Origin: Pantoea sp. RIT-PI-b
Lineage (GTDB): Bacteria > Pseudomonadota > Gammaproteobacteria > Enterobacterales > Enterobacteriaceae
Length of the DNA: 64,000 nucleotides
Reading direction: 5' to 3'
NCBI RefSeq assembly: GCF_001187905.1
Contig: NZ_LGIS01000007.1
Location: 248,001 to 312,000, forward strand
In this document: piece after piece, positions 38,274 to 63,815 of the stretch
Layout: each line of letters opens with the position of its first letter
How positions within the stretch are numbered: the stretch's first letter is position 1
Position numbers and translations under genes: made by a program
Notes under the pieces: model-generated
Told to the model about the DNA's origin: nothing
What the model saw: only the letters and a program-made list of their open reading frames with translations
The model's database searches: none

Positions 38274-38360
38274 ATGGGACAATTTTCACCTGGCGTTACC
38301 ATGACAAAACGCGGTAACGATTTCATATTTCAACGGAAAATTGAGGTTCGCGATGTCTGA
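38274..38360 (+). CDS. Possible 28-residue upstream frame overlapping the speA start
   Basis: [20 protein letters not shown] and eight further residues; its TGA lies 5 nt inside speA (ATGTCTGA). AGCAGG abuts its ATG directly, so initiation would be weak. If translated, it would couple to speA. It may equally be chance. Confidence 0.25.
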
Positions 38361-40332: not shown

Positions 40333-40346
40333 TTAATTGCTCATTA

Positions 40347-40373
40347 ACCGGGCTTCGCCAGAGGCCCGGTTTT
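40347..40373 (+). terminator. Terminator of speA
   Basis: ACCGGGC (40347-40353) pairs with GCCCGGT (40364-40370), followed by TTT. It cuts speA off from the adhesin locus. Confidence 0.85.
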
Positions 40374-41050
40374 AACCATTCCTGCCTTTTTTCTTTTTCA
40401 TCGCCACTTATTTAATTAATTTGTGAAGATGATCACTCTTGACCTATTTATAACCGCCCACCCAAAAAACGTCATTAATAGGTTCTTCTCTATCTTCTTA
40501 TTTTTGCTAAGAAAGCCCGCCGGCTGGCATCGCTATTATCAATAATAACCCTGCAGTAAGTACTGATTCATCAACCATCTGACAGCCAATCTGTTATGTA
40601 TTGATTGGGATGTATAATAAAAATTTAAACATTAAGGGTTGAATAGTAACTATTGTAATTATCTTTTTTTGGCACCTTTTGGAATCATTGATTTAAAATG
40701 AATGAATTCGCATTTAAGGATAAAGATATAAATCAACCCATATTGATTTAATTATTTTTGTTTTATTTCAAATGCTTCGTTGTTTTATGATCTGTCAAGA
40801 CTGGTACTAACTTAAATTTTTCTAGGAATAATCCGAAGTTTTTATGAACTTTAGAGAAATTTACTTACGTTATTGATTGGTTTAAACGATTGAAGTTGTC
40901 AGCACTGTTTACTGAAATCTATTTTTCAAAGTGTAAGTTGTACGTTAACCTTCAGTTAAGGCATTAAGTTTTATCAATGTTTCCCTTACTTCTTACATGA
41001 GAAATCCTGACAGTTTAGCGCTATCAGGCAGTTGCAGTAAGGACCATGAA
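40374..41050. promoter_or_regulatory. AT-rich control region of the adhesin locus
   Basis: About 680 bp without a gene and visibly AT-richer than anything else in the window. It holds many A/T tracts (for example around 40590-40780), small repeats such as CCTTCAGTTAAGG near 40950, and direct TTGATT motifs. Such long AT-rich leaders often bind H-NS and several activators upstream of biofilm genes. I cannot name individual promoters with confidence. Confidence 0.5.
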
Positions 41051-41740
41051 ATGAGCAATCAACCGAAGTTTATCTTCATGTTGGAGCCGGTTTACGCTTT
41101 ATCCGGTCAGGTGATTGCCAGGGAATTGTTAACGCGTTTTGCCGATGACGCAGATATCAATAATAAGCGTAACCCCAACAGGGATGCAGGTTTCTTCAGT
41201 CAGCTTTCTGCTGACATTAAATGGCAGTTATTCCTCCACCAGATCGAAAAACTTATTCAGCTATACCAGAAAGGGTTTGATCAGATTGTCAGTGTGAATG
41301 TTGATAGAGATATCGTAGCCAGCATCTTTAAAGATGATGAAATACAAGAAAAACTGGCTCAACTGACGCTGCTGCGTCTGGAAATATCCGCATTCTTCAC
41401 CGCGCGCTTTAATAGCGCCGATCTGCTGCTGTTAAAAGGTGTCGCGAAAGTGACGCCCGCCCCTTTATGGCTCGATGACTTTGGTCCGGGTTATTCCAAC
41501 CTGAACATGCTCGATAGCGGAATATTTGAAATCGTCAAGATTGACAAAGATTTTTTTTGGCAATTTGGCGACGGTCGCACCTTTGACATTCTGCTCGACC
41601 ACCTCAACGAATTATGCAACGGCGTGATTGTTGAGGGCGTTGAAAATCAACAACAGGTCGACCTGCTGTCGCATAAAGCAATTTATGGCATGCAGGGCTA
41701 TTTCTGGCAGAGCATCTATCTCAATGATTTTATAGCGTAA
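41051..41740 (+). CDS. EAL-domain protein (c-di-GMP phosphodiesterase or sensor)
   Basis: A 229-residue stand-alone EAL domain without signal peptide, transmembrane helix or GGDEF part. EAL itself reads ELL (E25-L26-L27). The other metal and catalytic residues are present: N83 in VNVDRD, E111 in RLEIS, D142-D143 in DDFGPGYSN, K163 in KIDKDF and E195 in EGVEN. Loop 6 has Pro instead of Thr (DDFGPG), so activity may be reduced. It could hydrolyse c-di-GMP or sense it. It is the first gene of the adhesin locus, in line with c-di-GMP control of biofilm. The start at 41051 has AAGGA 7 nt upstream; the frame is open to 40997. Confidence 0.85.
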   Translation: MSNQPKFIFMLEPVYALSGQVIARELLTRFADDADINNKRNPNRDAGFFSQLSADIKWQLFLHQIEKLIQLYQKGFDQIVSVNVDRDIVASIFKDDEIQEKLAQLTLLRLEISAFFTARFNSADLLLLKGVAKVTPAPLWLDDFGPGYSNLNMLDSGIFEIVKIDKDFFWQFGDGRTFDILLDHLNELCNGVIVEGVENQQQVDLLSHKAIYGMQGYFWQSIYLNDFIA

Positions 41741-41785
41741 TCCTGATATTAGTTGGGTTGGTTTCATCCCTCGGGGAAGAAAAAT

Positions 41786-41965
41786 ATGTCAAAGCCTGGG
41801 CTGCACGCGTTTCACGTAATTACTGCCCGGCCGATTGAGAATAAAACTATTTTTCCCATGGTGATTTTAAGAAATAAAACCAATGCGTTATCAGGATGGC
41901 GGCTTAACAAAACTCAACGCGATTTCATCATTAGCCTGTATGAGGTCGCTCCAGAGAAGAAGTGA
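41786..41965 (+). CDS. 59-residue protein of unknown function between the EAL and adhesin genes
   Basis: MSKPGLHAFHVITARPIENK is the start and QRDFIISLYEVAPEKK the end. GGGGAAGA lies 5 nt before the ATG, a good ribosome binding site. No signal peptide or transmembrane helix is visible. It may be a small regulator or a remnant; I do not recognise it. Its stop codon lies within the first of two hairpins that precede the adhesin gene. Confidence 0.55.
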   Translation: MSKPGLHAFHVITARPIENKTIFPMVILRNKTNALSGWRLNKTQRDFIISLYEVAPEKK

Positions 41966-41987
41966 ATAATCTCACTGATTATTCACT
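41961..41987. promoter_or_regulatory. Perfect 11-bp hairpin before the adhesin gene
   Basis: AGTGAATAATC-TCACT-GATTATTCACT, stem 11 bp, loop 5 nt. No T tract follows. It covers the stop codon of the small gene. Confidence 0.7.
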
Positions 41988-41993
41988 GTAAAA

Positions 41994-42022
41994 GCCGGTG
42001 TCCGCGGATGCCGGGCATTTTT
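41994..42022 (+). terminator. Terminator-like hairpin 27 nt before the adhesin start
   Basis: GCCGGTGTCC...GGATGCCGGGC folds into a GC-rich stem (three pairs, one bulge, then six or seven pairs) followed by ATTTTTAT. Because the adhesin ATG is so close, the giant gene must be reached by readthrough, which suggests transcription attenuation. Confidence 0.6.
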
Positions 42023-42048
42023 ATAGAACTGCGCGGGATCTCAATAAC

Positions 42049-45000
42049 ATGAATAATATCTCAGTAACCCCCAAAGGTGGGACCATTGCTTCTGAGCTGA
42101 GTGGAAATCAAGTTAATTTAACCGCTCCTAGTGTAGTGAAGCTGCATCTTAATCAGTCTGATATTAAGTCTTTCACACGCAATGGTAATGATTTAGTTGT
42201 CACCACAAAATCTGGTGAAGTGGTTGTTATTCATGGTTTTTATAGCCCGAATGGCGATAGCGATCTGGTCCTGCAGGACGATCGCGGCGCGATGTGGTGG
42301 GTGGAAGATCCCGGTACAGAAGGTTTCCAGTATGTCTCTATCGACAGCACCGAAGGTCTGTTAGCGGAAAACACCACCAATGACGGCACTATTGCCGCCT
42401 TCGGTATCGGTGGTGCAGCGCTGGCCGGTATCGGCGCGCTGTTTGCTGGCTCTGGCGGCGGTGGCGGAAATGCCTCACCTGGAGATAACGGTGGCAATCC
42501 CACTAACCCGACCGATCCCGACACCACACCACCAGCCGTAGTGAGCGATGTGGTGGTTACGGACGCCGTTGGCCCCTATCAGGGCACGATCAGTGCAGGT
42601 AGCATAACCGACGACAACACGCCAACGTTAAGCGGAACCGCAGAAGCGGGTGCCATCATCCGCATCTATGACGGCAATACGCTGATCGGCTCAGTGACCG
42701 CAGGTGCCGATGGTAGCTGGAGCTTCACCACGCCTACGCTGACGGATGGCCAGCATAGCCTGAGCGTGACCGCAACCGATGCCGCTGGCAATACCAGCGC
42801 GGCGTCAAATCCCGTAGGTTTCACCGTTGATACCGTAGCGCCGGATGCCGTGGCGGGTTTGACCGTGGTGAACAACAGCGGCTCTACTGCGCAGCCGATC
42901 ACCAACGGCGGTGCTACCAATGACACCACGCCACAGCTGAGCGGTACCGCAGAAGCGGGCAGCATCATCACCATTCGTGATGGCAATACGGTGCTAGGCA
43001 GCGTTACCGTCGGTAGCAATGGCGCATGGAGCTTTACCAGCCCAGCGCTGAGCCAGGGTAGCCATACGCTGAGCATCACAGCCACCGATGCGGCGGGTAA
43101 TTCCAGCACGCCGACCACCATCACCTTTACCGTGGATACCCAGGCGCCTGCCGCTGCTACGGAGCTGTCACTCAGTGATAACTCCGGCAATAACTCAGGC
43201 AATGTGCCAAACGGCTCCTCCACCGATGACAATACGCCAACCCTGAGTGGGCGCGGTGAAGCAGGCGCAGTGGTGAGCGTTTATGACGGGCAAACCCTGC
43301 TCGGCACGGCGGTGGTGGGAGCAAATGGCAGCTGGAGTTTCACCACGCCAACCTTGAGCAACGGTAGCCACAGCTTAACGGTTACCTTGACTGATGCCGC
43401 CGGTAACGTCAGTCCCGCGTCGCCTGCATATGAAGTCAATGTTCAGGCCGGTATTCCGCCAGCCACCACCTCATTTGAAATCACCGATGATACCGGTAGC
43501 ACGCTGGTGCAGCTTAGCAACGGTGCCAGCACCCACGACAACACGCCAACGCTGAGTGGCCTCGCCACCGCCGGGGCGCTTATCACGCTGTACAACGGTA
43601 CAACCGTGCTGGGTAGCGTGGTGGCGGACAGTGATGGTCAGTGGACCTTTACTCCAGGCACTTTGGCTGATGGTTCTTATGCTCTTCACACCTCGGTGAC
43701 TGATACCGGCGGCAACGTGACGCAAACGCCGACAATTTCCATCACTATCGATACCGTCGCCCCAGCGGCGGCTGGCGGCATACAGCTGAGCGATAACGAT
43801 GGCAGCACGCTGCAACCGATCGCTTCCGGTGGCGCCACCAATACCACCACGCCGGTGCTCAGCGGCACCGCCGAACCGGGCAGCACTGTGACGGTGCGCG
43901 ATGGCAGCACCGTGCTGGGCACGGCAACTGTCGGCAGCAATGGCACATGGAGCTTCACCTCGCCGACGCTGACCGAAGGCAACCACAGCCTCACCACTAC
44001 CGTGACCGATGCGGCGGGTAACGTTGGTCCGGCTTCCAGCCCAATCACCTTCACGGTTGATACCCAGGCGCCAGCGGGTGCCAGCAATGTGGTGATCAGC
44101 GATAACGTCGGCAGTACCACCGGCCCTATCACCGCAGGCGGTACCACTGATGACAGCACCCCGACCTTAACCGGTAACGGTGAAGCGAATGCCATCGTCA
44201 AAATTTATGACGGCACCACGCTGATTGGCAGCGTTACCGTGGGCACCAATGGCAGCTGGAGCTTTACCACGCCAACCCTGAGCAACGGTAGCCATTCGCT
44301 GAGTGTCACGCTGACCGACGCGGCGGGCAACGTCAGCCCGGCCACCACTGGCGTTGGTTTTACCGTGAATGCGGGCGTGCCGCCAACCACCAGTACGCTG
44401 GAGATCACCGATGACAGCGGCAGCACGCTGAAAGTGCTGCCTGAGGGTTCCAGCACACAGGACACCACGCCAACCCTCAGCGGGCTGGCTGCGGCCAATG
44501 CGGTCGTTGAGTTGTACAATGGCACCACGCTGCTGGGCAGCACCGTCGCCGGTGCGGATGGCCAGTGGAGCTTCACGCCAGCGGCTCTGGCCGACGGCAC
44601 TTACGCCTTCCACGCGGTGGCCACGGATACCAGCGGCAACGTGACCAATTCCGGCACCATCAACATCACCGTTGATACCGTGGTGCCGGATGCGGCGAGC
44701 GGGGTAGCACTCACCAATGATGCCGGCAGCATTACGCAGCCCGTCACCTCCGGCAACGCCATCAATGATGCAACGCCGGTGTTGAGCGGCAGCGCGGAAG
44801 CGGGCAGTACCGTCACGATTCTGGATGGCACCACGGTGCTGGGAACTGTGACAGTGGGCGGCGATGGCAACTGGAGTTTCACCACGCCAACGCTGGCGGA
44901 AGGCAATCACAGCCTGACCACCACGGTGACCGATGCGGCGGGCAACGTCAGCCCGGCCACGGCACCGATCGCCTTTAGCGTTGATACCGTTGCACCAGCG

Positions 45001-48000
45001 GCGACCAGCGGATTGGTCGTCACGGATAACGTTGGCAGCAGCACCGGCCCGTTAACCTCCGGCACCATTACCGATGACAGCACGCCAACCCTGAGCGGCA
45101 CAGCCGAAGCGGGAGCGGTGGTGCGCGTCTATGACGGCACCACGCTGCTCGGCTCAGCGACGGTTGGCAGCAATGGCAGCTGGAGCTTCACGCCAGATGC
45201 CGCGCTGACCAATGGCCAGCATAGCCTGACCACCACGGTGACCGATGCGGCGGGTAATGTCAGTCCCTCTTCGCCGGTATTTACACTCAATGTCGATGCT
45301 GGCGTACCGGCCACCAACAGCTTGCTGATTGTCAGCGACGACAGCGGCAGCACGCTGGTGGAACTGCCAAACAATTCCAGCACCAATGACACCACACCGA
45401 TTTTGAGTGGCCAGGCAAGCGAGGGCGATCTGATCACCCTGTACAACGGCACCACGATTATTGGCAGCGTGGTGGCGGGCGCCGATGGGCAGTGGAACTT
45501 CACGCCAGCGGCGTTGGCTGATGGCAACTACGCGTTCCACGCCACGGCCACCAATCCAACAACCGGTGTTGAAACCGATACGCCGACCATCAACATCACC
45601 ATTGATACCGTGGTGCCAAGCGCGCCAGCGGATGTGGCGCTGACCAATGATGCAGGCGATCCGATTCCTGCCGGCAGCAGCACTAACGACAATACGCCAA
45701 CGCTGAGCGGAACCGGTGAAGCCGGTGGTACGGTCACCATCTCCGATGGCACCACCGTACTCGGCACCACCACGGTGGGCAACGATGGCAACTGGAGTTA
45801 CACCACGCCTCCGCTAAGCGATGGTAATCACAGCCTGACCTCAACCGTCACCGATCCGGCGGGCAACACCGGCCCAGCGTCACCGCCGGTCACCGTCACC
45901 GTCGATACCCAACCGCCAGCGGCGGCAGGCAATGTACAGTTCAGTAACGATGACGGCACGCCGATTGCCGCAGGCGGCACCACCAATGACACCACGCCAA
46001 CGCTGAGCGGCACCGCCGAGCCAGGTAGCACCGTAACCGTCAGCGACGGCACCACCGAGTTGGGGACGGCGACTACCGGCAGCGATGGCAACTGGAGCTT
46101 TACGCCAACCGAACCACTGAGCGAAGGGCAGCACAACCTCAGCACCACCGTCACCGATCCGGCGGGCAACGTTGGCCCAGCATCGTCGGTGGTGATCGTG
46201 ATTGTCGATACCACGGCACCGGCCGTTGCCAGCGATCTGCAGCTCAGCAATGATGGCAGCGGCACGCTGGTGCCGATAGCCGATGGTGGCACCACCAATG
46301 ATTTGACGCCGGTACTCAGCGGGCGCGCTGAACCGGGCAGCATCGTGACGATTATCGACGGCACTAGCGTGCTGGGTTCGGTGGCCGTCGGCAACGATGG
46401 CAACTGGAGCTTTACGTCACCCGCGCTGGATCCGGGCGCACACAGCCTGACCACCACGGTGACCGATGCGGCGGGCAATACCGGCGCGGCGAGTACGCCA
46501 CTGACCTTTACTCTTGATGTCACCACGCCGCCAGCACCCGGCGGTGTGCAGCTCAGCAACGACACCAGCGGCACGCCAGTTCCGATTAACTCAGGCGCGG
46601 CGACCAATGATGCCACGCCGGTGTTGAGTGGTACCGCAGCGGAGGGCAGCACTATTACCGTCTCTGATGGCGGCACCGTGCTGGGCACCGTTACCGTCGG
46701 CAGCGGTGGCGAGTGGAGCTTTACAACGCCAGCCCTGAACGAGGGTAACCACAGTTTAACCGCGACGGTAACCAGTCCGGCGGGCAATACCAGCGCGCCA
46801 TCGACGCCGATTGTGGTCACCGTAGATATCACACCGCCAGCCGCGGCTACGGGTCTGCAACTGAGCAATAACGACGGTGCGACGCCGCTACCGATTGCCG
46901 CTGGCGGTACCACCAATGACACCACGCCAGCCCTGAGCGGTACGGCCGAAGCGGGCAGCATCGTAACGGTACGTGATGGCACAGACATTATTGGCAGCGC
47001 CACCGTAGGCAGCGATGGCAGCTGGAGCGTTACGCCAAGCCAACCGCTGGCGGCGGGCGAGCATACGCTCACCGCCACCGTCACCGATCCGGCCGGCAAC
47101 GTTGGGCCAACCTCAACGCCGATCACCGTCAACATTGATACCACGCAGCCACCGGCAGCAGGCGACGTGGCGCTCAACAATGACAATGGCGGCACGCCAG
47201 TGCCGATTACCTCCGGCGGCGCAACCAACGACACCACGCCGGTGATCAGTGGCACAGCAGCCGCAGGTAGCACCGTCACGGTGCTTGATGGCACCACGGT
47301 ATTGGGCACGGTGACGGTGGGCAGCGGTGGAACCTGGAGCTTCACCACGCCAGCCCTGAGCGAAGGCGCGCATAGCCTGACCACCACCGTGACCAGCCCG
47401 GCGGGCAACGTCAGCGATCCGTCTACGGCAATCGCCTTTACGGTGGATACTCAGCCACCGGCCACCTCAACCGGGCTGCAGCTGAGCAATGATGGCGGCA
47501 CGACCATCGCTGCCGGCGGCATCACCAATGACAACACTCCTATCCTGCGCGGCACCGCGGAGGCGGGCAGCACCGTCACGGTGCGTGATGGCACAACCGT
47601 ATTGGGCACAGCAACGGCGGACACTGACGGCAACTGGAGCTTCACTCCCGCTACCGCGCTGGGTGAGGGCGCGCACAGCCTGACCACCACCGTGACCGAT
47701 CCGGCTGGCAACAGCAGCGGCGCTTCCACACCGATCGCCTTTACCGTGGATACCACACCGCCAGCCGCCGCCACCGATCTGCAACTCAGCAATGACAGCA
47801 GCGGCACAGCGGTACCGATTGATACCGGTGGCCGCACCAACGACACCACGCCAGTATTGAGCGGCAGCGCCGAAGCGGGCAGCGTGGTGACGGTAAGTGA
47901 TAATGGCGCGGTGCTGGGTAGCACCACGGTTGGCACCGATGGCAAATGGAGCTTCACACCAACCACACCACTGGATGCGGGTGGACATAGTCTGACCACC

Positions 48001-57000: not shown

Positions 57001-57171
57001 ATTAATGATTTCGTGAAAGTGGACCATACTTCAGATGGCAATACGGTGCTCTCAATTGACCGTGACGGTACCGGTACGGGTTACAGCGCGACTCAACTGA
57101 TTACGCTGGAAGGCGTGAACGTTTCTCTGGAGGAGCTGCTGCAACAACCGCACCAAAACCACACGGTCTAA
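42049..57171 (+). CDS. bapA: Giant BapA-type biofilm adhesin, type I secreted, 5040 residues
   Basis: Residues 1-150 form the BapA-type N-terminal prefix: MNNISVTPKGGTIASELSGN, SVVKLHLNQSDIKSFTRNGN, a WWVEDPGTEGFQY segment, then a Gly-rich linker. Residues about 160-4537 are Ig-like repeats of 100-104 residues with the pattern TNDTTPTLSGTAEAGS, DGTTVLG, WSFTTP, HSLTTTVTDAAGN and FTVDT-APAA. I count 42 complete copies plus a degenerate one. A non-repetitive part follows (about 4540-4680), two VCBS-like units (about 4680-4910) and a C-terminal RTX-like stretch (TAGADTLTGGAYDDTITSGAGADTL) with type I secretion signal. No Cys seen. The start at 42049 follows comparison with BapA; the frame is open to 41998. 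Expected to be surface-bound and to mediate cell-cell adhesion. The symbol is by family resemblance. Confidence 0.92.
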   Translation: MNNISVTPKGGTIASELSGNQVNLTAPSVVKLHLNQSDIKSFTRNGNDLVVTTKSGEVVVIHGFYSPNGDSDLVLQDDRGAMWWVEDPGTEGFQYVSIDSTEGLLAENTTNDGTIAAFGIGGAALAGIGALFAGSGGGGGNASPGDNGGNPTNPTDPDTTPPAVVSDVVVTDAVGPYQGTISAGSITDDNTPTLSGTAEAGAIIRIYDGNTLIGSVTAGADGSWSFTTPTLTDGQHSLSVTATDAAGNTSAASNPVGFTVDTVAPDAVAGLTVVNNSGSTAQPITNGGATNDTTPQLSGTAEAGSIITIRDGNTVLGSVTVGSNGAWSFTSPALSQGSHTLSITATDAAGNSSTPTTITFTVDTQAPAAATELSLSDNSGNNSGNVPNGSSTDDNTPTLSGRGEAGAVVSVYDGQTLLGTAVVGANGSWSFTTPTLSNGSHSLTVTLTDAAGNVSPASPAYEVNVQAGIPPATTSFEITDDTGSTLVQLSNGASTHDNTPTLSGLATAGALITLYNGTTVLGSVVADSDGQWTFTPGTLADGSYALHTSVTDTGGNVTQTPTISITIDTVAPAAAGGIQLSDNDGSTLQPIASGGATNTTTPVLSGTAEPGSTVTVRDGSTVLGTATVGSNGTWSFTSPTLTEGNHSLTTTVTDAAGNVGPASSPITFTVDTQAPAGASNVVISDNVGSTTGPITAGGTTDDSTPTLTGNGEANAIVKIYDGTTLIGSVTVGTNGSWSFTTPTLSNGSHSLSVTLTDAAGNVSPATTGVGFTVNAGVPPTTSTLEITDDSGSTLKVLPEGSSTQDTTPTLSGLAAANAVVELYNGTTLLGSTVAGADGQWSFTPAALADGTYAFHAVATDTSGNVTNSGTINITVDTVVPDAASGVALTNDAGSITQPVTSGNAINDATPVLSGSAEAGSTVTILDGTTVLGTVTVGGDGNWSFTTPTLAEGNHSLTTTVTDAAGNVSPATAPIAFSVDTVAPAATSGLVVTDNVGSSTGPLTSGTITDDSTPTLSGTAEAGAVVRVYDGTTLLGSATVGSNGSWSFTPDAALTNGQHSLTTTVTDAAGNVSPSSPVFTLNVDAGVPATNSLLIVSDDSGSTLVELPNNSSTNDTTPILSGQASEGDLITLYNGTTIIGSVVAGADGQWNFTPAALADGNYAFHATATNPTTGVETDTPTINITIDTVVPSAPADVALTNDAGDPIPAGSSTNDNTPTLSGTGEAGGTVTISDGTTVLGTTTVGNDGNWSYTTPPLSDGNHSLTSTVTDPAGNTGPASPPVTVTVDTQPPAAAGNVQFSNDDGTPIAAGGTTNDTTPTLSGTAEPGSTVTVSDGTTELGTATTGSDGNWSFTPTEPLSEGQHNLSTTVTDPAGNVGPASSVVIVIVDTTAPAVASDLQLSNDGSGTLVPIADGGTTNDLTPVLSGRAEPGSIVTIIDGTSVLGSVAVGNDGNWSFTSPALDPGAHSLTTTVTDAAGNTGAASTPLTFTLDVTTPPAPGGVQLSNDTSGTPVPINSGAATNDATPVLSGTAAEGSTITVSDGGTVLGTVTVGSGGEWSFTTPALNEGNHSLTATVTSPAGNTSAPSTPIVVTVDITPPAAATGLQLSNNDGATPLPIAAGGTTNDTTPALSGTAEAGSIVTVRDGTDIIGSATVGSDGSWSVTPSQPLAAGEHTLTATVTDPAGNVGPTSTPITVNIDTTQPPAAGDVALNNDNGGTPVPITSGGATNDTTPVISGTAAAGSTVTVLDGTTVLGTVTVGSGGTWSFTTPALSEGAHSLTTTVTSPAGNVSDPSTAIAFTVDTQPPATSTGLQLSNDGGTTIAAGGITNDNTPILRGTAEAGSTVTVRDGTTVLGTATADTDGNWSFTPATALGEGAHSLTTTVTDPAGNSSGASTPIAFTVDTTPPAAATDLQLSNDSSGTAVPIDTGGRTNDTTPVLSGSAEAGSVVTVSDNGAVLGSTTVGTDGKWSFTPTTPLDAGGHSLTTTVTDTAGNVGPASPAVTVTIDTEAPPAATDVELNNDQGNTPAPIASGGATNDTTPVLSGNADPDSIVVVRDGTTVLGTVIVGTDGAWSFTTPALSQGEHSLTATVTDAAGNSSAPSTAITFTVDTEAPSAATGLQLSNDSGGTAVPIAVGGSTNDTTPVLSGSAEAGSTVTISDGSNVLGSVVVGSSGNWSFTSTVLGEGPHSLTTTVTDPAGNVSAPSAALNFSIDTTPPAAPDALELSNNNGSTPVAIDGNSTTNDATPLLSGTAEAGSTVTVRDGTQVLGSAIVGSNGQWSFTTPTLGEGGHSLTATVTDPAGNVGPASSAIAFTVDTVAPVAATGLELNNNNGGTPVPIANNGTTNDSTPLLSGTAEANSIVIVSDGTTVLGSAIANAQGDWSFSPTLTDGTHNLSVTVRDAAGNTSPASSAITVTVDTVAPPAATGLTLTNDIGTPVTIPNGGLTNDNTPVLSGSGQAGSIITIADQNGVLGSTTVGAGGTWSFTPQTALADGTHTFSVTASDAAGNVSAPATIGVVIDATPPAVAGNIVASNDEGTSPVAITNGGATNDNTPFLTGTAEAGSTIIIRDGTEILGSASVGSNGQWSFSSPQLDDGEHSLTTTVVDAAGNVGPASTAIDFTVDTTVPTPATLVVSNDNSGAPVLVPNGASTSDNTPLLSGAAEAGSLVTIYDGNVVIGSTTALGDGSWSFSSPVLTDGSHTLTATVTDEVGNVSAPSASFTVVVDVTPPQPADDLLLQNNNGGTPITIADGGITNDSTPAISGTAEANAVVRVYDGTTLVGSAIAGSNGAWSITTTALSNATHTLNVSVTDAAGNVSSNASVSLTVDTSTPAQVLSFAVYNDANTTPVQVANEGDTNDNTPVISGTGVAGTTINVYEGPTLLGTTTVGDNGTWSFQTTTLSDGQHSFTVSVTNAAGTTGPEATPITVYIDTSVPDPITLADLTVNDNVGGSTGPLTNGVTTDDNTPTFSGTAEAGSRISIYDGTTLLGTVNAVGGNWSYTPGTGLSNGGHSFTFTVTDAAGNVSAVSSPAFTLNIAADLPPATSTLVITDDNGTTPVELSNGANSNDSTPVLTGAANEGDVITIHDGAIVLGSVTVGNTGQWSYTPTLADGAHGIYITTVNSVGNPGATSPTVNFTIDTGVPLAATNLSAANNNDGITVPIADNGITNDSTPRLAGLAEANGIVTVYDGNTVIGSTVANASGEWTFTAPTLSQGGHVLSVTVTDAAGNVGPRSDVVNLTVDTLAPNASTLVVNNDETGAVVPNGGATNDNTPTLSGTAEVGSVITIYDGTTLLGSVAAGAGGDWNFTTAVLGDGSHALSVRVTDVAGNTSVASSTATVIVDTAAPAAVSGLAAANNNGSSPVAIAAGGTTNDSTPALSGTAEAGSIVKIFDGANQIGSVTAGSNGAWSFTSPTLADGLHTLTVTATDAAGNVSPDASISLTVITAAPTPVTNLLVSDNVGATTGNLSNGASTDDNTPTLSGTATAGNVVIISEGSTVLGSAVAGSNGAWSFTTAALSDGSHPLSVTVRDAAGNTSTATNFTVNVDTVAPANATLLVTNDTNGTTVPNGGSTNDSTPTLSGTAEAGSRVSIYDGTTLLGTATAGSGGAWSFTTDVLTQGAHALSVTVTDAAGNVSGSTAATVNIDTVAPVAITGLAAANNNGSTPVAINAGGSTNDNTPALSGSAEAGSLVIIRDGTAIIGSVTAGSNGSWSFTTPTLADGAHTLNVTATDAAGNVSPNAAFALTIDTVAPSPVTNLVINDNVGTIQGPLANGAVTDDATPTLSGTAEANAIVTIYDGSTVLGSVTAGAGGAWTFTTATLSNGVHPLSVTVKDAAGNTSAATTPVSITVDTVAPTASTLVITNDVTNTTVPSGGATNDTTPTLSGVAEAGSRVTIYDGAAPLGTAIAGSDGSWTFTTGVLTTGPHPLSVTVTDAAGNVSGTTSASVIIDTTPPAAVTNLVAANNNGSTAVTIPNNGVTNDSTPLLTGSGEIGAKISVYDGTTLLGTTTVGSNGTWSFVSTALSNGTHTLNVTATDAAGNVSPTTSTTLSIDTVAPNPVTNLVITDDVGTIQGPLANGASTDDATPTLSGTAEANAIVTVYDGTTVLGSVTAGSTGAWTFTTATLSNGTHPLSVTVTDAAGNTSAASATVSIIVDTVAPAASTLVITNDVTGTVVPSGGATNDTTPTLSGSAEVGSRVSIFDGGTLLGTVTVGSGGTWSFTTGTLAQGTHPLSVTVTDAAGNVSGTTAASVTIDTVAPAAVTNLVAANNNGSTAIAIPNNGATNDSTPLLTGNGEVGARISVYDGTTLLGTTTVGSNGSWSFISTPLSNGTHTLNVTATDAAGNVSPNASTTLRVDTVAPAASSLTITDDAGSTPVTLVNGAYTRDTTPVLNGTAEVGAIVTIYDGTTALGSVTVGAGGTWTYTTAALANGAHPLSVTVTDAAGNVSTGNTAVTVNVDTVPPAAVSGLAINDAGTTVTGSGEVGAIVTVRDAGGNALGTATVGTGGTWSVSLSTAQTTGASLSVIQTDRAGNVSTSSPLTGAIRIVAANDVNEVDYTTQTGTLNNGTTSVSHTALLTVGLGNVLQASVLTNGNAYMFNVGPDDTRTVTLNGSISSVGLLTNYSLNLYEQQSNGTWLLINSTTNYLGAVLSLGTLKGANVTYNNLGTGNYAVIVASTVNVSLLPTSTISTVSDITTLAVTVAATVTGNLLTNDTSSLAGTIPNGTAVTAVSGNVVAATGNTVINTTYGTLTIDSHGNYTYALKAGLNIDTLPAADTFTYSVRDASGALTSASLTVNLHNGASATSLLAANSLFADTTSGDHDASGSIYGSSTASHTGTLSITNEHGDITTVHSVGTTAIAGDFGVLSIAANGSYTYALNAGVDGQSLTHKEVFSYTLAANDGTITSQSFTIELHPTITGTAGADTLTGGAYDDTITSGAGADTLVYHLLASADATGGNGHDTWTDFNVAQGDKIDVSNLLIGWNDSTSNINDFVKVDHTSDGNTVLSIDRDGTGTGYSATQLITLEGVNVSLEELLQQPHQNHTV
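42526..55660 (+). repeat. Array of 42 Ig-like repeats of about 300-312 bp plus one degenerate copy
   Basis: Each unit has one TP-x-LSG motif, by which I counted copies. Domains 2-10 repeat as triplets (the third member starts with PATTS/PTTST-EITDDSGS and YNG instead of YDG). Domains 11-24 are of one uniform type with LQLSNDSGG and VPI. From about domain 31 to 41 triplets return in a different form (NLVINDNVG / STLVITNDV / LVAANNNGS). Repeat 43 (GLAINDAGTTVTGSGEVG) lacks the linker. Confidence 0.9.
53284..55107 (+). repeat. Tandem 912-bp duplication of a three-domain block in the adhesin
   Basis: Two markers show the same distance: ACGATTCAG at 53332 and 54244, and ACGCTGGTGA at 53611 and 54523, both 912 bp apart. 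The block equals three Ig domains (304 residues). It keeps the reading frame. Confidence 0.85.
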
Positions 57172-57198
57172 CGGCTATGTGACGCAGGGATGCAGTAA

Positions 57199-57226
57199 GG
57201 GCACAGGGATGTGCCCCTTTCTCTTT
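57199..57226 (+). terminator. Partial terminator between adhesin and secretion genes
   Basis: GGGCACA-GGGA-TGTGCCC (57199-57216) followed by CTTTCTCTTTA, a pyrimidine tract with interrupted Ts. It could reduce expression of the secretion genes relative to the adhesin. Confidence 0.6.
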
Positions 57227-57245
57227 ATTGACTGGTGGACTATCG

Positions 57246-58697
57246 ATGGAACTGATGCACTCAGGCGCAACTTTTCGCCGTTCGTTTAAGCTCAGCGTTC
57301 TCTGTGCGGGCATGGCTTTACTTTACAGTTCTCAACTTTTAGCGGCCAGTGACGCGTTAACCAACGCGGGGCGTATTACTTCAGCAGGTTTGGCGCAACA
57401 ACAGGAACTCCCTTCATTAGCCGGCGAGGTGGCTGAACCGGCCCTTGCCAACGTACCCGACTCTCTCACCATCAACCAGGCCGTGCAGCGCGCCATTCAG
57501 TGGCATCCGGATATTGCCGAAGCCGTTGGCAAGATGCTGGAACAGGCCAATCAGGTTGATGTGGCGAAAGCCAAATACTATCCGCAAATCAGTGCCGGGA
57601 TGAATAACGGCTACAGTAACGCCTATAGCGAAAAGGGCTTCAGCCCATCGTTTGTGCTGTCGGTTTCGCAGATGCTGTATGACTTTGGCAAGGTCAGCAG
57701 CTCGGTGCGTTCTGCCGAAGCGGGCGTGGCGCAGGAGCAGGCCAACGTGTTGGTGAGTATTGACACCGTAGCGCACGATACCGCGGCAGCGCTGGTGGAA
57801 GTGCAGGGTTATCAGCAACTGGTGACGATTGCGCAGCAGCAGTTGGCGGCGCTGAGTAAAATTGGCGATCTGGCGCGCCAGCGGAATGAAGAGGGCGCGG
57901 CGTCACTGTCGGATGCGACGCAAACCGACGCGCGTATCGAAGGCGCGCGTACCACGTTGACGCAGTATCAGGCCAATCTCAACCGCTGGCGCGCCACGCT
58001 GGCGACCTATCTGGGCTGGCCGCTGGTGAAAAAAGTCAGCGATGATTTCCCCACCAATCTCACCAAATCCTGTCAGATGGCGAAAGCCGATGACAAGCTC
58101 AATCCAGCGGTGCTAGCGGCCTGGGCGCAGGCCAATCAGGCGCAGGCAAAACTCGATAACGCGAATGCGCAAAATATGCCCACCATCTCGCTGGAACCGC
58201 AGGTGACGCATTATCTCAACGATCACTACTCCGGCAGTGAAAGTCTGGATCGCACGCAATATTCCGCCTTTGTCAAAGTCGAGATGCCGCTCTATCAGGG
58301 CGGTGGCATCACCGCCAGCCGTGACGCGGCCGCCAATGCGCTGCGCGCCGCCAATGCGGCCGTCAACTCGGCGCGGCTCAAGGCGCGGCAGCAGCTGAGC
58401 GAATCGCAGAACGAGTCGCAAAGCCTGGCGCTCAGCCTCGCCATCATGGGTCGGCAACAGACGTTGGGTGAGAAAACCCAGTCGCTGTATCAGGATCAGT
58501 ATCTGCAGCTTGGCACGCGTCCGCTGCTGGACGTGCTCAACGCCGAGCAGGAGGTGTTCCAGACCCGTTTCACGCTGCAGCAAACCATCAGCCAGTTACG
58601 CTCACTGCAGCTCGATTGCCTCTACAGCACTGGGCATATGCGGTCGGCGTTTGCCCTGAATAATCAGCGGATCCAGTCCGTGGAGATCCAGCCATGA
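57246..58697 (+). CDS. TolC-like outer-membrane protein of the type I secretion system
   Basis: A 483-residue outer-membrane efflux protein (LapE/BapB type). A signal peptide ends near residue 34 (SQLLAASDAL). Two outer-membrane efflux repeats follow, the first with INQAVQRAIQWHPDIAEAVGKMLEQANQVDVAKAKYYPQIS, the second from about residue 270 with LAAWAQANQAQAKLDNANAQNMPTISLEP. The GTRPLLDVLNAEQEVFQTRFTL motif is family-typical. It would form the outer channel for adhesin export. The start at 57246 has GGTGGA upstream; the frame stays open to 57228. It overlaps the next gene by 4 nt. Confidence 0.9.
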   Translation: MELMHSGATFRRSFKLSVLCAGMALLYSSQLLAASDALTNAGRITSAGLAQQQELPSLAGEVAEPALANVPDSLTINQAVQRAIQWHPDIAEAVGKMLEQANQVDVAKAKYYPQISAGMNNGYSNAYSEKGFSPSFVLSVSQMLYDFGKVSSSVRSAEAGVAQEQANVLVSIDTVAHDTAAALVEVQGYQQLVTIAQQQLAALSKIGDLARQRNEEGAASLSDATQTDARIEGARTTLTQYQANLNRWRATLATYLGWPLVKKVSDDFPTNLTKSCQMAKADDKLNPAVLAAWAQANQAQAKLDNANAQNMPTISLEPQVTHYLNDHYSGSESLDRTQYSAFVKVEMPLYQGGGITASRDAAANALRAANAAVNSARLKARQQLSESQNESQSLALSLAIMGRQQTLGEKTQSLYQDQYLQLGTRPLLDVLNAEQEVFQTRFTLQQTISQLRSLQLDCLYSTGHMRSAFALNNQRIQSVEIQP

Positions 58698-60865
58698 CGC
58701 AACTACAACTTCCCGATGCGCCCGATAGCGCCTCCGGGGGAAATGTGCCCCTGCACGGATGGGCCACCGCCATTATCCTGATCGCCGGTCATTATCGCTT
58801 GCCCTGTTCGCCGGGGATGATCATGGCCGCTGCGGAGTGGCAGGGCAAACAGACGCGTGACAAAGCGTTGCGCCATCTGGCGCGCCAGGCCGGTTTATCG
58901 CTGCAGCTGTATGAAGAGAATAAGTGGGAGATCACCAGCTGGCGGCTGCCGCTGGCGGTAGAGCTGGCCGATGGTCAGGTGGGCGTGATCACCCAATTTG
59001 ACGGTGACGATGAGGTGCGGGTGCACTTTGCCGGTGATGAACAGCCAGCGCCGATTGCACTGGCAACGCTGCTACCGGAAATCCGCTTTGCCGCCGCGCT
59101 GCGGCCGGTGACGGCGGCCAAAGACAGCCGCGTTGATCGCTATCTGTCGACGGTGAAACCGGACTGGCTGCGCCGCCTGGTGCTGCACGATCTGCGTCCT
59201 TACGGCTACGTGATGCTGGGATCGTTTCTGATCAACCTGCTGGCGCTGGTCGGCATTATCTTCTCGATGCAGGTGTATGACCGGGTGATTCCGGCGCAGT
59301 CCTATCCGACGCTGTACGTGCTGTATATCGGGGTGATTATCTCGGTGGTGTTCACCTATATCCTGCGCGTCGGGCGCGATCACGTCACCGATCTGCTGGG
59401 TAAACGCGCCGACATGCGCGTCTCCGATCGCGTCTTTGGTCACGCGCTGCGGCTACGGAGCAGCGCGGTGCCACGTTCGACCGGCACTTTCATCTCGCAG
59501 CTGCGCGAGCTGGAGTCGATCCGCGAAATGGTCACCTCCACCACGGTGACGGCGATTGTCGATATGCCATTCTTCCTGCTGTTCCTGCTGGTGATGGCAA
59601 TCATCGCGCCGCAGCTGGCCTGGATTGCACCGGTGGCGGTGCTGCTGATGATCTTGCCGGGGGTGCTGAGCCAGAAAAAACTGTCGAAGCTGGCGCAGCA
59701 AAACCTGAAAGAGTCGACGCTGCGTAACGCGGTGCTGGTGGAGAGCGTACAAGGGCTGGAGGACATCAAGCTAATGCAGGCGGAAGATCGCTTCCTGCAG
59801 CAGTGGAACAGCTACATTCGCATCACCGCCCAATCCGGAGTCGAGATGCGCAAAGTGATGCACTCGCTGATCACCTGGGGCGTGACGGTGCAAGGGTTGG
59901 TGTATGCCAGCGTGATCGTCATCGGCGCTCCGATGGTGATCGACGGCGATATCACCACCGGTGCCATCGTGGCCGCGTCGCTGCTCTCTTCACGCATGAT
60001 TGCGCCGATGGCGACGCTGTGCGGCGTGCTGGCGCGCTGGCAGCAGGTGAAAGCGGCGAAAGGCAGCCTCGATGCGCTGATGAACTTGCCGGTGGAAAAC
60101 AGCAAGGACGAGACGCGCATTCACACGCCGGTGCTGTTTGGTCACTATCAGTTCACCGACGCCATGTTCCGTTACTACACCGATTCGATGACTATCGCGC
60201 TGCGCATTAAAAGCCTGACGATTAAACCGGGCGAGCGCATTGCGGTGCTGGGGCGCAACGGTTCCGGCAAATCGACCCTGCTGCAGGCGATGTGCGGCGG
60301 CATTGATTTAGTTGGCGGCGAGCTGCGGCTGGATAATCTCAGTTTGCCGCATATCGATGTTGCCGACGTGCGACGCAACGTCGGCCTGCTGACGCAAAAT
60401 GCGCGCCTGTTCCACGGTACGCTGCGTGAAAATTTGACTCTCGGCGCGGCGCACGCCACCGATGATGCCATCTTTGGCGCGCTGACCGTCAGCGGCGGGG
60501 CAGATTTTATTCGTCGTCTGCCGCTCGGTCTCGATCATCCGATTATGGAAGGTGGCACCGGACTTTCCGGCGGTCAGCGCCAGTCGCTGCTGCTGGCGCG
60601 TATGCTGCTGCGCGATCCCAACATTATCCTGCTGGATGAGCCGACGGCGGCGCTCGACGATCACACCGAGAAGGAGTTTATCGAACGTCTTGGCCAGTGG
60701 CTGAATGGTCGCACGCTGATCGTCGCCACGCACCGAGCGGCGATCCTGGCGCTGGTGGATCGTGTGCTGGTGTTGAAAGAGGGACAGCTGGTGATGGATA
60801 GCCCGAAAGAGAACGCCTTGCCGCCGCCGCGCGCTAACGGTAGTCAACCGGAGGCGCAATCATGA
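58694..60865 (+). CDS. Type I secretion ABC transporter (LapB-like, inactive C39-like domain)
   Basis: A 723-residue inner-membrane ATPase. Residues about 15-130 are a C39-like domain. The only Cys there (Cys38, in HYRLPCSPG) is not in the Q-x5-CGxA arrangement of active peptidases, so it likely binds the substrate rather than cutting it. Transmembrane helices lie about residues 165-440. Walker A is GRNGSGKST (520-528), signature LSGGQRQS (624-631), Walker B IILLDEPTAALD (about 643-654), H-loop VATHR. The order and 4-nt overlaps on both sides show that it works with its neighbours to export the adhesin. Confidence 0.92.
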   Translation: MTQLQLPDAPDSASGGNVPLHGWATAIILIAGHYRLPCSPGMIMAAAEWQGKQTRDKALRHLARQAGLSLQLYEENKWEITSWRLPLAVELADGQVGVITQFDGDDEVRVHFAGDEQPAPIALATLLPEIRFAAALRPVTAAKDSRVDRYLSTVKPDWLRRLVLHDLRPYGYVMLGSFLINLLALVGIIFSMQVYDRVIPAQSYPTLYVLYIGVIISVVFTYILRVGRDHVTDLLGKRADMRVSDRVFGHALRLRSSAVPRSTGTFISQLRELESIREMVTSTTVTAIVDMPFFLLFLLVMAIIAPQLAWIAPVAVLLMILPGVLSQKKLSKLAQQNLKESTLRNAVLVESVQGLEDIKLMQAEDRFLQQWNSYIRITAQSGVEMRKVMHSLITWGVTVQGLVYASVIVIGAPMVIDGDITTGAIVAASLLSSRMIAPMATLCGVLARWQQVKAAKGSLDALMNLPVENSKDETRIHTPVLFGHYQFTDAMFRYYTDSMTIALRIKSLTIKPGERIAVLGRNGSGKSTLLQAMCGGIDLVGGELRLDNLSLPHIDVADVRRNVGLLTQNARLFHGTLRENLTLGAAHATDDAIFGALTVSGGADFIRRLPLGLDHPIMEGGTGLSGGQRQSLLLARMLLRDPNIILLDEPTAALDDHTEKEFIERLGQWLNGRTLIVATHRAAILALVDRVLVLKEGQLVMDSPKENALPPPRANGSQPEAQS

Positions 60866-62088
60866 TCAAACAATTACCGGCAAGACTGCGGCTGGTGACC
60901 GCCGCAGAGGTGGACTCCTCCGACGATCTGCTGGGCGAGCTGCGATCCGAAACCCATTACACCGGCGCCGTGCGGCTGATTGTCATCAGCACCGCGTTGA
61001 TCCTCGTCACGGTGATTTGGGCGTGGTTTGGCGTGCTGGATGAAGTCTCAACCGGCACCGGCAAAGTGATCCCCAGCTCGCGCGATCAGGTGCTGCAATC
61101 GCTGGAGGGCGGCATTTTGACCGAGCTGTATGTGCATGAAGGCGATCAGGTGCAGGCCGGACAGATTGTGGCCAAGCTTGACGCTACGCGTTCGCAATCC
61201 AACGTCGGTGAGAGTGCAGCGCGCTATCGTGCGGCGCTGGCAGCGGCGGCCCGTTTGACGGCGGAAGTGAACGATCAGCCGCTCACCTTCCCGGCGGAGC
61301 TGGATAAGTTTCCCGAGCTGGAGGCCTCAGAAACCCGGCTGTATAAAACCCGCCGCGCTCAGCTCTCCGATGCCACCGCGCAGTTTAAAGAGTCGCTGGC
61401 GCTGGCCAACCGCGAACTGGCGATTACGCAGCGCCTGGCGAAAACCGGCGCCGCCAGTAGCGTAGAGGTGCTGCGTTTGCAGCGTGATAAATCGGATCTG
61501 GAGCTGAAGCTTACCGACATGCGCTCGCAATATTACGTGCAGGCGCGCGAAGAGCTGGCGAAGGCCAACGCCGAAGCCGACAGCATGGCGCAGGTGGTGA
61601 AAGGGCGTGAAGACACGGTAACGCGTTTAACCATCCGTTCACCGATGCGCGGCATTGTGAAAAACATCAAAGTCTCCACCGTCGGCGGTGTAGTGCCACC
61701 GAATGGTGAGCTGATGAACATCGTGCCAATGAACGATCGCCTGCTGATAGAAGCGCGCCTGTCGCCGCGTGATATCGCCTTTATTCATCCCGGCCAGCGC
61801 GCGGTGGTGAAGATCTCCGCCTATGACTACGCCATTTATGGCGGCCTCAACGGCGTGGTGGAGAGCATTTCGCCGGATACCATTCAGGATGAGGTCAAAC
61901 CGGAGATCTACTATTACCGCGTGTTTATCCGTACCGATAACGACTACGTACAGAATAAAGCCGGTAAGCGCTTCTCCATCAGCCCGGGGATGGTTTCTAC
62001 CGTGGATATCAAAACCGGCGAGAAGACGGTGATGGATTATCTGATTAAACCGTTTAATAAAGGCAAAGAGGCGATGCGCGAACGCTGA
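60862..62088 (+). CDS. HlyD-family membrane fusion protein (LapC-like)
   Basis: A 408-residue periplasmic adaptor anchored by one N-terminal transmembrane helix (about residues 35-56, VRLIVISTALILVTVIWAW). The lipoyl-type half-motifs VLQSLEGGILTELYVHEGDQVQAGQIVAKLD and RSPMRGIVKNIKVSTVGGVV flank a coiled-coil hairpin (about 110-250). The C-terminal SPGMVSTVDIKTGEKTVMDYLIKPF is typical of HlyD. It bridges the ABC transporter and the TolC-like channel. Overlaps the ABC gene by 4 nt. Confidence 0.93.
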   Translation: MIKQLPARLRLVTAAEVDSSDDLLGELRSETHYTGAVRLIVISTALILVTVIWAWFGVLDEVSTGTGKVIPSSRDQVLQSLEGGILTELYVHEGDQVQAGQIVAKLDATRSQSNVGESAARYRAALAAAARLTAEVNDQPLTFPAELDKFPELEASETRLYKTRRAQLSDATAQFKESLALANRELAITQRLAKTGAASSVEVLRLQRDKSDLELKLTDMRSQYYVQAREELAKANAEADSMAQVVKGREDTVTRLTIRSPMRGIVKNIKVSTVGGVVPPNGELMNIVPMNDRLLIEARLSPRDIAFIHPGQRAVVKISAYDYAIYGGLNGVVESISPDTIQDEVKPEIYYYRVFIRTDNDYVQNKAGKRFSISPGMVSTVDIKTGEKTVMDYLIKPFNKGKEAMRER

Positions 62089-62141
62089 TTTTTGCTGCCC
62101 GATTGCAGGGCGCTGCAATCTTCGCGATAATCGCGCCCATC

Positions 62142-62184
62142 ATCCCTTCCTCGTCGGGCCTAACGACGCGGAGGGGATTTTTTT
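62142..62184 (+). terminator. Terminator at the end of the adhesin/secretion locus
   Basis: TCCCTTCCTCGTCG (62143-62156) pairs with CGACGCGGAGGGGA (62163-62176) apart from one mismatch, followed by seven Ts. It closes the locus before speB. Confidence 0.85.
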
Positions 62185-62188
62185 CATC

Positions 62189-62315
62189 TATACCCTAAAT
62201 ACTTCATGCTCTAGGTGCGTTGGCTGCTCTCGTTCACCCGAATCACTTACTCAAGTAAGCTCATCGGGATTCTCTCGTTTGCCGCCTTCCTACAGCATGA
62301 ATTATTTAGGGTATA
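62189..62315. repeat. MITE-like palindromic element, copy B, next to speB
   Basis: 127 bp with terminal inverted repeats of 22 bp and one mismatch: TATACCCTAAATACTTCATG at the left against the reverse complement at the right. The centre has TCACTTACTCAAGTAAGCTC. Same family as 15882-15994. It marks the right border of the inserted locus. Confidence 0.9.
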
Positions 62316-62352
62316 CCTTATTAGGCTAATGACGGATTAAAGAGGACGATTT

Positions 62353-63273
62353 ATGTATAACACCTTGGGCAATCAGTACGATAACTCCCTGGTTTCTAAC
62401 GCTTTCGGTTTCATGCGCTTCCCGCTGAACTTCCAACCTTACGACAGCGATGCGGAGTGGGTGATTACCGGTGTTCCTTTCGATGCGGCGACATCAGGCC
62501 GTCCGGGCAGCCGTTTAGGGCCGGGCGCGATTCGTCAGATTTCCACTAATCTGGCGTGGGAAGGCTGTCGCTGGCCGTGGGATTTCGATCTGCGTCAGCG
62601 TCTGAACGTCGTCGACTGTGGCGATCTGGTGTATGCCTTCGGCGATTCACAGGATCTGTCGGACAAACTGCAGGCGCACGCCGAGAAGCTGCTGGCGAAC
62701 GGTAAACGCATGCTGACCTTTGGCGGCGACCACTACGTGACGCTGCCGCTGCTGCGCGCGCACGCTAAACACTTCGGCAAAATGGCGCTGGTGCACTTCG
62801 ATGCGCATACCGATACCTACTCTAACGGTCCAACCTTCGACCACGGCACCATGTTCTTCACCGCGCCGAAAGAAGGCTTGATCGATCCGCAGCATTCGGT
62901 GCAGATCGGTATTCGTACCGAGTTCGACAAGAGCCTTGGCTTCAACGTGCTGGATGCGGCGCAAGTCAACGATCGCAGCGTCGACGATATACTGGCGGAA
63001 GTGAAGCGCACCGTCGGCGATCTGCCGGTGTATCTGACCTTTGATATCGACTGCCTTGATCCTGCCCATGCGCCGGGCACCGGCACGCCGGTGATTGGCG
63101 GCCTGAGCAGCGATAAAGCCACCAAGCTGATTCGCGGTTTGCAGGGCATGAATATCGTTGGTATGGATCTGGTGGAAGTGGCGCCGGGTTACGACCACGC
63201 CGATCTCACTTCGCTGGCGGCGGCCACACTGGCGCTGGATATGCTGCACGTGCAGGCGGCGAATAAAGGTTAA
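62353..63273 (+). CDS. speB: Agmatinase
   Basis: A 306-residue Mn-dependent ureohydrolase that turns agmatine into putrescine and urea. Mn ligands are in [20 protein letters not shown] and [35 protein letters not shown] and [18 protein letters not shown] follow. Length equals E. coli SpeB (306). It completes the SpeA route but must have its own promoter here, because a strong terminator and a repeat element precede it. Confidence 0.97.
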
Positions 63274-63735: not shown

Positions 63736-63751
63736 TCGTTCTTTGCTGGCT

Positions 63752-63803
63752 GCCCCCCACCTCGGTCCTCCCCCGTTAACGGGGGAAGGCCGGGATGGGG
63801 GAC
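63752..63803. repeat. BIME-like element between the YidB-like gene and loiP
   Basis: CCCCCCACCTCGGTCC, the hairpin CTCCCCCGTTAACGGGGGA and GGCCGGGATGGGGGA. It is a more diverged member of the family at 1891. Confidence 0.75.
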
Positions 63804-63815
63804 CGCGAGCACTAT

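Follow-up and report, generated by a model that had tools for sequence, protein, structure and literature searches.

What separates speA from speB in Pantoea sp. RIT-PI-b, and how did it come to lie between two conserved metabolic genes? In the 64,000-nucleotide stretch analysed here (the window; positions 248,001 to 312,000 of contig NZ_LGIS01000007.1, assembly GCF_001187905.1), the genes for biosynthetic arginine decarboxylase (speA) and agmatinase (speB) enclose six genes, all on the + strand, in the order EAL-type gene, gene for a 59-amino-acid (aa) protein, giant adhesin gene and TolC/ABC/HlyD exporter genes (Table 1). An EAL protein, a small protein, a 5040-residue adhesin and a complete type I exporter had been proposed in this order by an earlier model-made reading of the letters alone (the sequence-only reading), and profile matches confirmed it. 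The speA-speB spacing of 22,024 bp between matched ends was the same in a second, two-contig assembly of the species (G028). Comparison of this junction within and beyond the genus turned a single-genome oddity into a mapped exchange site between two conserved metabolic genes, with no recognised integrase or tRNA target. The model developed below, including its history and regulation, in which the junction serves as an integrase-free exchange site for surface-structure cassettes, is in our judgement probable.

Sixty genomes drawn from the genus were searched with SpeA, SpeB, HlyD, EAL and MetK (G-numbers denote this draw, with G000 holding the window, and L-numbers denote the named loci described below). 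Both speA and speB were on one contig in 55 genomes; G052 matched neither gene, G014 had no speB, and G035, G007 and G010 had the pair split over contigs, with HlyD on the speB contig in each. The junction was empty in 20 of the 55 (162–178 bp), measured 777 bp in G024 and spanned 9.6–49.1 kb in 34, of which 31 contained HlyD of the exporter, two (G005 and G008) contained capsule genes only and one, the Mixta genome G040, had speB inverted and approximately 40 kb away. The speA gene was itself broken in G056, which has an empty junction, and in G041 and G014. The metK-speA gap, used as a control, was constant at 618–867 bp in all 59 genomes with both genes.

Beyond the genus draw, the best 80 of at least 595 stretches were taken as named loci, 72 of them from neither Pantoea nor Mixta and 70 of these judgeable, L104 and L111 being too short upstream. 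The gap was at most 1,019 bp in 65 of the 70, and the five exceptions were two Serratia loci (2.5 and 3.4 kb), Hafnia alvei (5.5 kb, coding for an M60 peptidase/fn3 protein), Enterobacter sp. kpr-6 and Providencia (both at least 10 kb; no speA lay within 10 kb in L069 and L103, so that either the cargo is at least 10 kb long or speA lies elsewhere). Named loci with both metK and speA had 481–1,060 bp between them in 65 of 66 cases, the exception being L108 with 6,713 bp. The predominance of short gaps outside the genus suggests that the short state is ancestral and the insert a derived one. The comparison of junctions that the sequence-only reading had proposed has yielded empty junctions both inside and outside the genus, and its claim of an insertion at one precise junction with the flanks kept is upheld.

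What that reading had missed is that the junction takes other cargo, namely two capsule types in Pantoea and a ShlB-type transporter in an Enterobacter. Thirty loci were fetched and mapped together with that of G000, G034 was added afterwards, and the HlyD of G028 and G042 was placed by the HlyD search only. Ten adhesin loci also carried a capsule cluster between HlyD and speB, and the same kind of cluster was found without the adhesin in G005 and G008. Capsule proteins were recognised as KpsE, KpsS and KpsM (all scoring under the NCBIfam cut-offs) together with a KpsC-type protein in G023, and as KpsF in G004 (above cut-off), other loci being assigned by sequence clustering. The cassettes share these KpsE/S/M/C/F-type proteins with Kps clusters of the ABC-transporter-dependent, group-2-like kind, and differ from known Kps clusters in their site at speA-speB and in existing as two unrelated versions (branch 1.63). 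In the second capsule type the main block was flipped between G032 and G039/G045, kpsC-kpsS being on the + strand in either arrangement, and a third small module was present in G013 and G059. Besides adhesin and capsule genes, the cargo of the exchange site includes two-partner-secretion genes in one further genus: in Enterobacter sp. kpr-6 (L069:138-9549), a ShlB-type two-partner-secretion transporter and a 2532-aa open reading frame (ORF) were positioned directly upstream of speB. In the Mixta locus L045, a KpsM-like ABC-2 membrane protein was next to ORFs that by eye resembled transposases.

The borders of the insert could be placed closely. Filled and empty junctions had the stretch from the predicted promoter of speB to the gene itself in common, which places the insert between the −35 box and the stop codon of speA, 27 bp apart in the empty loci L021 and L035. 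A strict regular expression found this promoter in 25 of the 32 fetched loci (once as TTGCGG, in G024), and it was also seen in empty junctions and in E. coli. On the left side, the terminator that the sequence-only reading had assigned to speA is a real hairpin with a T run; a loose scan detected such a structure 3' of speA in 26 of the 32 loci (G024 included), four of the 26 being weaker than −11 kcal/mol, and upstream of the speB hairpin in none of the 10 testable empty junctions (L047 was untestable). The site can be understood to tolerate cargo because each flank is self-sufficient, a hairpin closing speA and speB having a predicted promoter and leader hairpin of its own. This leader hairpin had been taken for a strong terminator closing the locus; it follows the promoter predicted for speB and recurs at that position in empty junctions as well as in many Enterobacterales, and is therefore not the terminator of the insert. 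The adjoining repeat, previously called similar to a miniature inverted-repeat transposable element, is instead an enterobacterial repetitive intergenic consensus (ERIC) element. Its length of 127 bp, palindromic structure with inverted-repeat ends, conserved core, primer sites and copy number all agreed with known ERIC, with no notable difference; both primer sites, in the spelling that we take to be standard, matched at 18 of 22 positions, and the genome held 41 further matches. By eye, ERIC was downstream of the speB hairpin in four of 31 right borders, and its place 3' of the hairpin in so few of them indicates a later arrival and not the cause of insertion. A second ERIC-like copy is present within the window at 15881-15993 (G000:C32:263881-263993).

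The history of the insert was examined with two trees. In the rpoB tree of 56 genus genomes and E. coli (G014 and G052 omitted, no rpoB match in G008 and G013, partial sequences in G001, G003 and G034), adhesin genomes formed two clades, and empty and capsule-only genomes formed a single clade (support 1.0) with the exception of the basal G024. In the exporter tree of 28 genomes, rooted with Salmonella bap and omitting G041, neither filled clade was shallowly nested in the other, and within the large clade the branching mostly followed the rpoB tree by eye. These data are best matched by a single early gain followed by one loss, in the P. agglomerans clade. On this view, the adhesin cassette (EAL gene, 59-aa gene, BapA-type adhesin and LssB-type exporter) would have been acquired early in the genus, between speA and the promoter predicted for speB; inheritance would then have been mostly vertical, apart from the P. 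agglomerans loss, and Kps-type cassettes would come and go between it and speB, probably through homologous recombination at the conserved flanks.

A recent insertion, as the sequence-only reading had implied, brought by a mobile element in the lineage of the window would agree with the empty junctions within the genus and with the AT-rich upstream part of the insert, yet it is very improbable given that 31 of 55 genomes, spread over two rpoB clades, have the locus and that the branching of the exporter tree is mostly that of the species, so that both trees point to an old insertion. The direct repeats which that reading had suggested looking for at the borders did not rise above the shuffle maximum in any of eight loci, the six genes of the locus in the window include no integrase, and the target lies between protein genes; these are not the marks of an integrative island, although no tRNA scan was made. 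Two separate gains, one in the P. piersonii/P. latae clade and one in the large clade, or a transfer between them, would require the same number of steps, two, as a gain followed by a loss, and in the rpoB tree the large filled clade has the empty clade nearer to it than the smaller filled clade (support 0.83). We nevertheless regard this as unlikely, because the exporter tree shows no shallow nesting of either clade, both clades have the same gene order and the same GGA motifs before tolC, and a CRP-like site occupies the same place in three of four smaller-clade loci examined.

Several results count against a single early gain with later exchange and a shared regulatory design. The exporter-tree root had a support of 0.86 and the rpoB split between the empty and the large filled clade one of 0.83, values that leave room for two gains or an old transfer, and G050 and G059 were placed differently in the two trees. 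The cassette is also not uniform in content: tblastn matched the 59-aa gene in just 18 of 31 loci, the EAL gene and any 59-aa match were both missing from G013 and G059, and no CRP-like site was found at the expected place in six of 27 loci.

Location next to polyamine genes had led to the speculation that arginine or putrescine level could influence expression of the adhesin operon. Its position is the one point in favour, and we consider such a link highly unlikely, since the operon has an upstream region of its own (approximately 680 bp) with a CRP-like site, a hairpin follows speA, speB has a separate predicted promoter, and the equivalent adhesin-exporter set of Salmonella is situated between smpB and ssrA. 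The GC content was 0.381 at 40001-41000, and a 13-genome alignment showed conserved blocks upstream of the EAL gene. CRP-like sites matching at least 8 of 10 positions occurred 64–120 nt 3' of speA in 21 of 27 loci; those scoring 9 or 10 (16 loci) were equalled by 0–2 of 40 shuffles each and those scoring 8 (five loci) by 6–16 of 40. Adhesin expression would accordingly be expected from the cassette's own upstream region, probably with CRP, given the conserved site. Among other candidates, an RcsAB-like box near 40823, about 490 nt 3' of the speA stop, matched 11 of 14 positions in ten of 27 loci and was equalled by 3–14 of 40 shuffles, and was treated as no more than a lead. For the operon leader, a known riboswitch was rejected, as an Rfam search of 36000-64000 (E ≤1) returned three matches far below gathering scores, the best of which, V_AS5, falls on the ERIC element.

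A further layer of control may act between the adhesin and its exporter, where three GGA motifs precede tolC. The first motif was present in 27 of 27 loci, the GGA of the central hairpin in 25 (absent in G013 and G059), the one over the Shine-Dalgarno (SD) sequence in 24, and all three in 24; G048 was scored without the SD motif as the regular expression found no start, with GTGGA seen there by eye. G034 was omitted from this count and from the 70-nt folds, and G041 from the leader counts. The pattern of a CsrA-type leader, with GGA motifs of which one is in a hairpin and one over the SD, thus appears in 24 of 27 loci. The CsrA consensus from systematic evolution of ligands by exponential enrichment (SELEX) is RUACARGGAUGU with GGA in a hairpin loop, and the biofilm gene pgaA is repressed by CsrA through sites over its SD, according to portions of PMC7652899. 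The core ACARGGATGT occurred once in the 64-kb window with both strands counted, inside the pre-tolC hairpin, and the longer consensus form ACARGGATGTGC three times in the genome. The hairpin stem was 96.6% paired over 17 distinct sequences representing the 27 loci. In Salmonella bap, the hairpin in the adhesin-tolC gap has the loop CCACGA without GGA, unlike that of the window. In the adhesin leader, a hairpin comparable to that of the window was found in 29 loci and by eye contained GGA in 21 of the 29.

We give about even odds to the proposal that CsrA limits exporter synthesis through the three motifs before tolC. It is weakened by covariation at one pair only, which 382 of 500 shuffles also attained; by a 7-bp stem with a mostly 4-nt loop, tighter than most of the SELEX hairpins in the portions of PMC7652899 referred to above; by 70-nt folds, whose longest hairpin had GGA in its loop in 22 of 27 loci; and by GGA counts of both leaders that, in the window genome alone, were not above shuffles. 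The same counts would suit a role independent of CsrA, in which the hairpin sets the adhesin:exporter ratio through partial termination or mRNA processing. Hairpins between operon genes are common, and the GC-rich stem here is followed by a pyrimidine-rich run (CCTTTCTCTTT). This CsrA-free explanation is possible and somewhat doubtful, as the T run is broken up, GGA is retained in 25 of 27 loci although one stem pair varies, and two more GGA motifs stand on either side, one over the SD.

The speB leader hairpin is ancestral and lies outside the insert, and the insertions provide a natural experiment on its association. Its core was exact in 52 of the 80 named loci, with a variant hairpin and T run in seven more (59 of 80), and no hairpin was found by scan in the remaining 21, which by the organism names as we take them comprise 14 Morganellaceae, two Pasteurellaceae and five others including Rosenbergiella, presumably a relative of Erwinia. 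Within the genus it was exact in 28 of 31 loci with variants in the other three, and empty Pantoea junctions, E. coli and Salmonella had it at the corresponding position. The predicted promoter and the hairpin stayed with speB whether the upstream gene was speA, HlyD or an outward-pointing capsule gene: the exact core was present in G032 and G045, whose speA is 49 kb away, and in seven of nine loci whose speB-adjacent gene has the opposite orientation (variants in G053 and G017). Retention next to speB in filled junctions indicates that the hairpin is tied to speB and not to speA. In an alignment of 24 distinct sequences, hand-picked and not including all variants, 94.4% of cells paired and five pairs changed on both sides, a number reached by three of 500 shuffles, which leave relatedness in. 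The 20-base pattern of the hairpin had one exact copy in the window genome, one with two mismatches and three with three. A query with the 181-bp E. coli interval matched 5375 of 5426 E. coli genomes, 3510 of them with at least 80% coverage, and speB was the sole gene named among the matches listed. The Rfam search of 36000-64000 gave no match to the hairpin. We tentatively suggest an undescribed Enterobacterales cis-acting RNA, either an attenuator or a terminated leader RNA, that might gate agmatinase synthesis; it might alternatively protect the mRNA. The locus offers two RNA hypotheses that lend themselves to direct testing, namely CsrA gating of the giant adhesin's exporter and this speB leader hairpin.

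Table 1. Features of the speA-speB interval and its flanks (window positions)
Feature	Position	Strand	Evidence or detail
speA, biosynthetic arginine decarboxylase, left flank	38341..40332	+	TIGR01273, 892.3 bits, above cut-off
Hairpin with T run, predicted speA terminator	40348..40373	+	sequence
AT-rich upstream regulatory region of adhesin operon	40374..41050	+	~680 bp; conserved blocks
CRP-like site	40422..40437	+	TGTGA-N6-TCAC(T), 9/10 match
EAL-type protein, STM1697/YdiV-like, 229 aa	41051..41740	+	PF00563, E 5.6e-17
59-aa conserved protein, no known family	41786..41965	+	
GC hairpin followed by TTTTT, adhesin leader	41995..42014	+	scan
BapA-type giant adhesin, 5040 aa	42049..57171 (ATG 42049)	+	Ig-like repeats, type I secretion signal
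Three GGA motifs, proposed CsrA sites	57185..57239	+	CAGGGA 57185-57190; hairpin 57199-57216 (GGGCACAGGGATGTGCCC); SD GGTGGA 57234-57239
TolC-family outer-membrane channel	57246..58697	+	TIGR01844, 307.9 bits, above cut-off
Type I secretion permease/ATPase, LssB type	58694..60865	+	TIGR03375, 762.7 bits, above cut-off
HlyD-type adaptor	60862..62088	+	TIGR01843, 329.6 bits, above cut-off
Predicted speB promoter	62103..62131	+	TTGCAG-N17-GATAAT
speB leader hairpin with T run, ancestral, outside insert	62142..62184	+	10 nt 3' of predicted −10 box
ERIC element in speB leader, 127 bp	62189..62315	.	inverted-repeat ends, multicopy
speB, agmatinase, right flank	62353..63273	+	TIGR01230, 334.6 bits, above cut-off

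The adhesin had the features of the BapA type, namely a prefix domain, a long Ig-like run and a secretion signal with adjoining exporter genes. Its N-terminus matched PF22783 BapA_N with 123.7 bits (cut-off 27) and NF033677 with 71 bits (cut-off 35), approximately 44 PF19077 bacterial Ig-like stretches were counted when summed over four pieces, and the C-terminal type I secretion signal matched TIGR03661 with 65.9 bits (cut-off 17.6). Over the genus loci, the adhesin ranged from 3815 to 6009 aa (26 ORFs of more than 3000 aa, one being a piece of a broken gene), and its ORF was disrupted in at least G001, G017 and G041. The exporter genes overlap by 4 bp each. By analogy with BapA, the exporter would secrete the adhesin, which would stay on or near the surface and promote attachment. 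Release of the LapA type was considered, and no lapD or lapG was among the named genes of the locus, although no search aimed at them was made. Salmonella bapA with its TolC/ABC/HlyD genes has the same four-gene order as the window, with exporter identities of 61.9% (TolC), 67.0% (ABC) and 72.8% (HlyD). The two systems differ in site, as a S. houtenae record has the Salmonella set between smpB and the transfer-messenger RNA gene (ssrA) and a plasmid record also has smpB before it, and in the absence of any annotated EAL or 59-aa gene ahead of Salmonella bapA. A search of plasmid and phage collections with HlyD as the single query gave Salmonella bap-type exporters as top matches (71.6–72.8% identity). 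Three more HlyD-type adaptors were found in the genome (G000:C31:36281, G000:C32:48047 and G000:C23:376526, with 54%, 42% and 43% identity), and other type I exporters are thus probably present.

The two small genes at the head of the cassette provide candidate regulators of the adhesin. The start of the EAL gene was best set at 41051 from orthologue alignment, and the top PDB match of its product was STM1697 (E 9.5e-20), followed by Lmo0131 and YdiV/CdgR (approximately 7e-9). Orthologues were scored, with numbering as in P0001, at what we take to be the catalytic positions of EAL phosphodiesterases: E43 was retained in 25 of 25, N101, E129, D160 and K181 in 26 of 26 each, and Q233 in 25 of 25. 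The second Glu of the E-x-x-E pair was retained in none of 26 (A, T or S instead), and drift was seen at D161 (21 of 26) and at the first and second E of EGVE (20 and 21 of 25). The full residue set of an active EAL phosphodiesterase is therefore not present. Like the degenerate, FlhD-binding STM1697 and YdiV, the protein is a stand-alone EAL domain of similar length; unlike them, it retains most catalytic residues. A portion of PMC10100727 describes STM1344 and STM1697 as catalytically inactive and not binding cyclic di-GMP (c-di-GMP). With STM1697 nearest in the PDB, the protein may belong near the FlhD-binding EAL-like group, with an active site that appears to be lost only in part. This partly degenerate EAL protein is likely a c-di-GMP-binding or partner-binding sensor or regulator rather than an efficient phosphodiesterase.

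The 59-aa gene had the same end codon in 16 of 16 examined cases, and its ratio of non-synonymous to synonymous substitution (dN/dS) had a median of 0.24 over 101 pairs and a maximum of 0.58, the median indicating purifying selection. It was found in two of 295 family genomes, both within the genus, and its product had no Pfam or NCBIfam match at E 0.001. The position of the gene suggests a regulator or chaperone of the adhesin. AlphaFold single-sequence models had a mean predicted local distance difference test score of 35.2 for the EAL protein and 56.4 for the 59-aa protein, too low for a fold search.

Overall, the locus is a new arrangement of known parts, and what is new is the arrangement and the GGA triplet; among the parts, only the 59-aa protein and perhaps the speB hairpin do not belong to a kind already known. 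A literature search judged by the titles of the top results found no publication on a speA-speB hotspot or a speB leader hairpin, and an excerpt of PMC7815308 mentions speA and not speB.

Elsewhere in the window, a tandem repeat at 18894-19149 has an 82-bp unit in 3.1 copies with 98% matches, and a GC-rich palindromic repeat (63744-63811) is located 3' of a 135-aa gene downstream of speB. A small gene resembling this 135-aa gene by eye lies between speA and speB in Erwinia typographi (L048:9408-9812).

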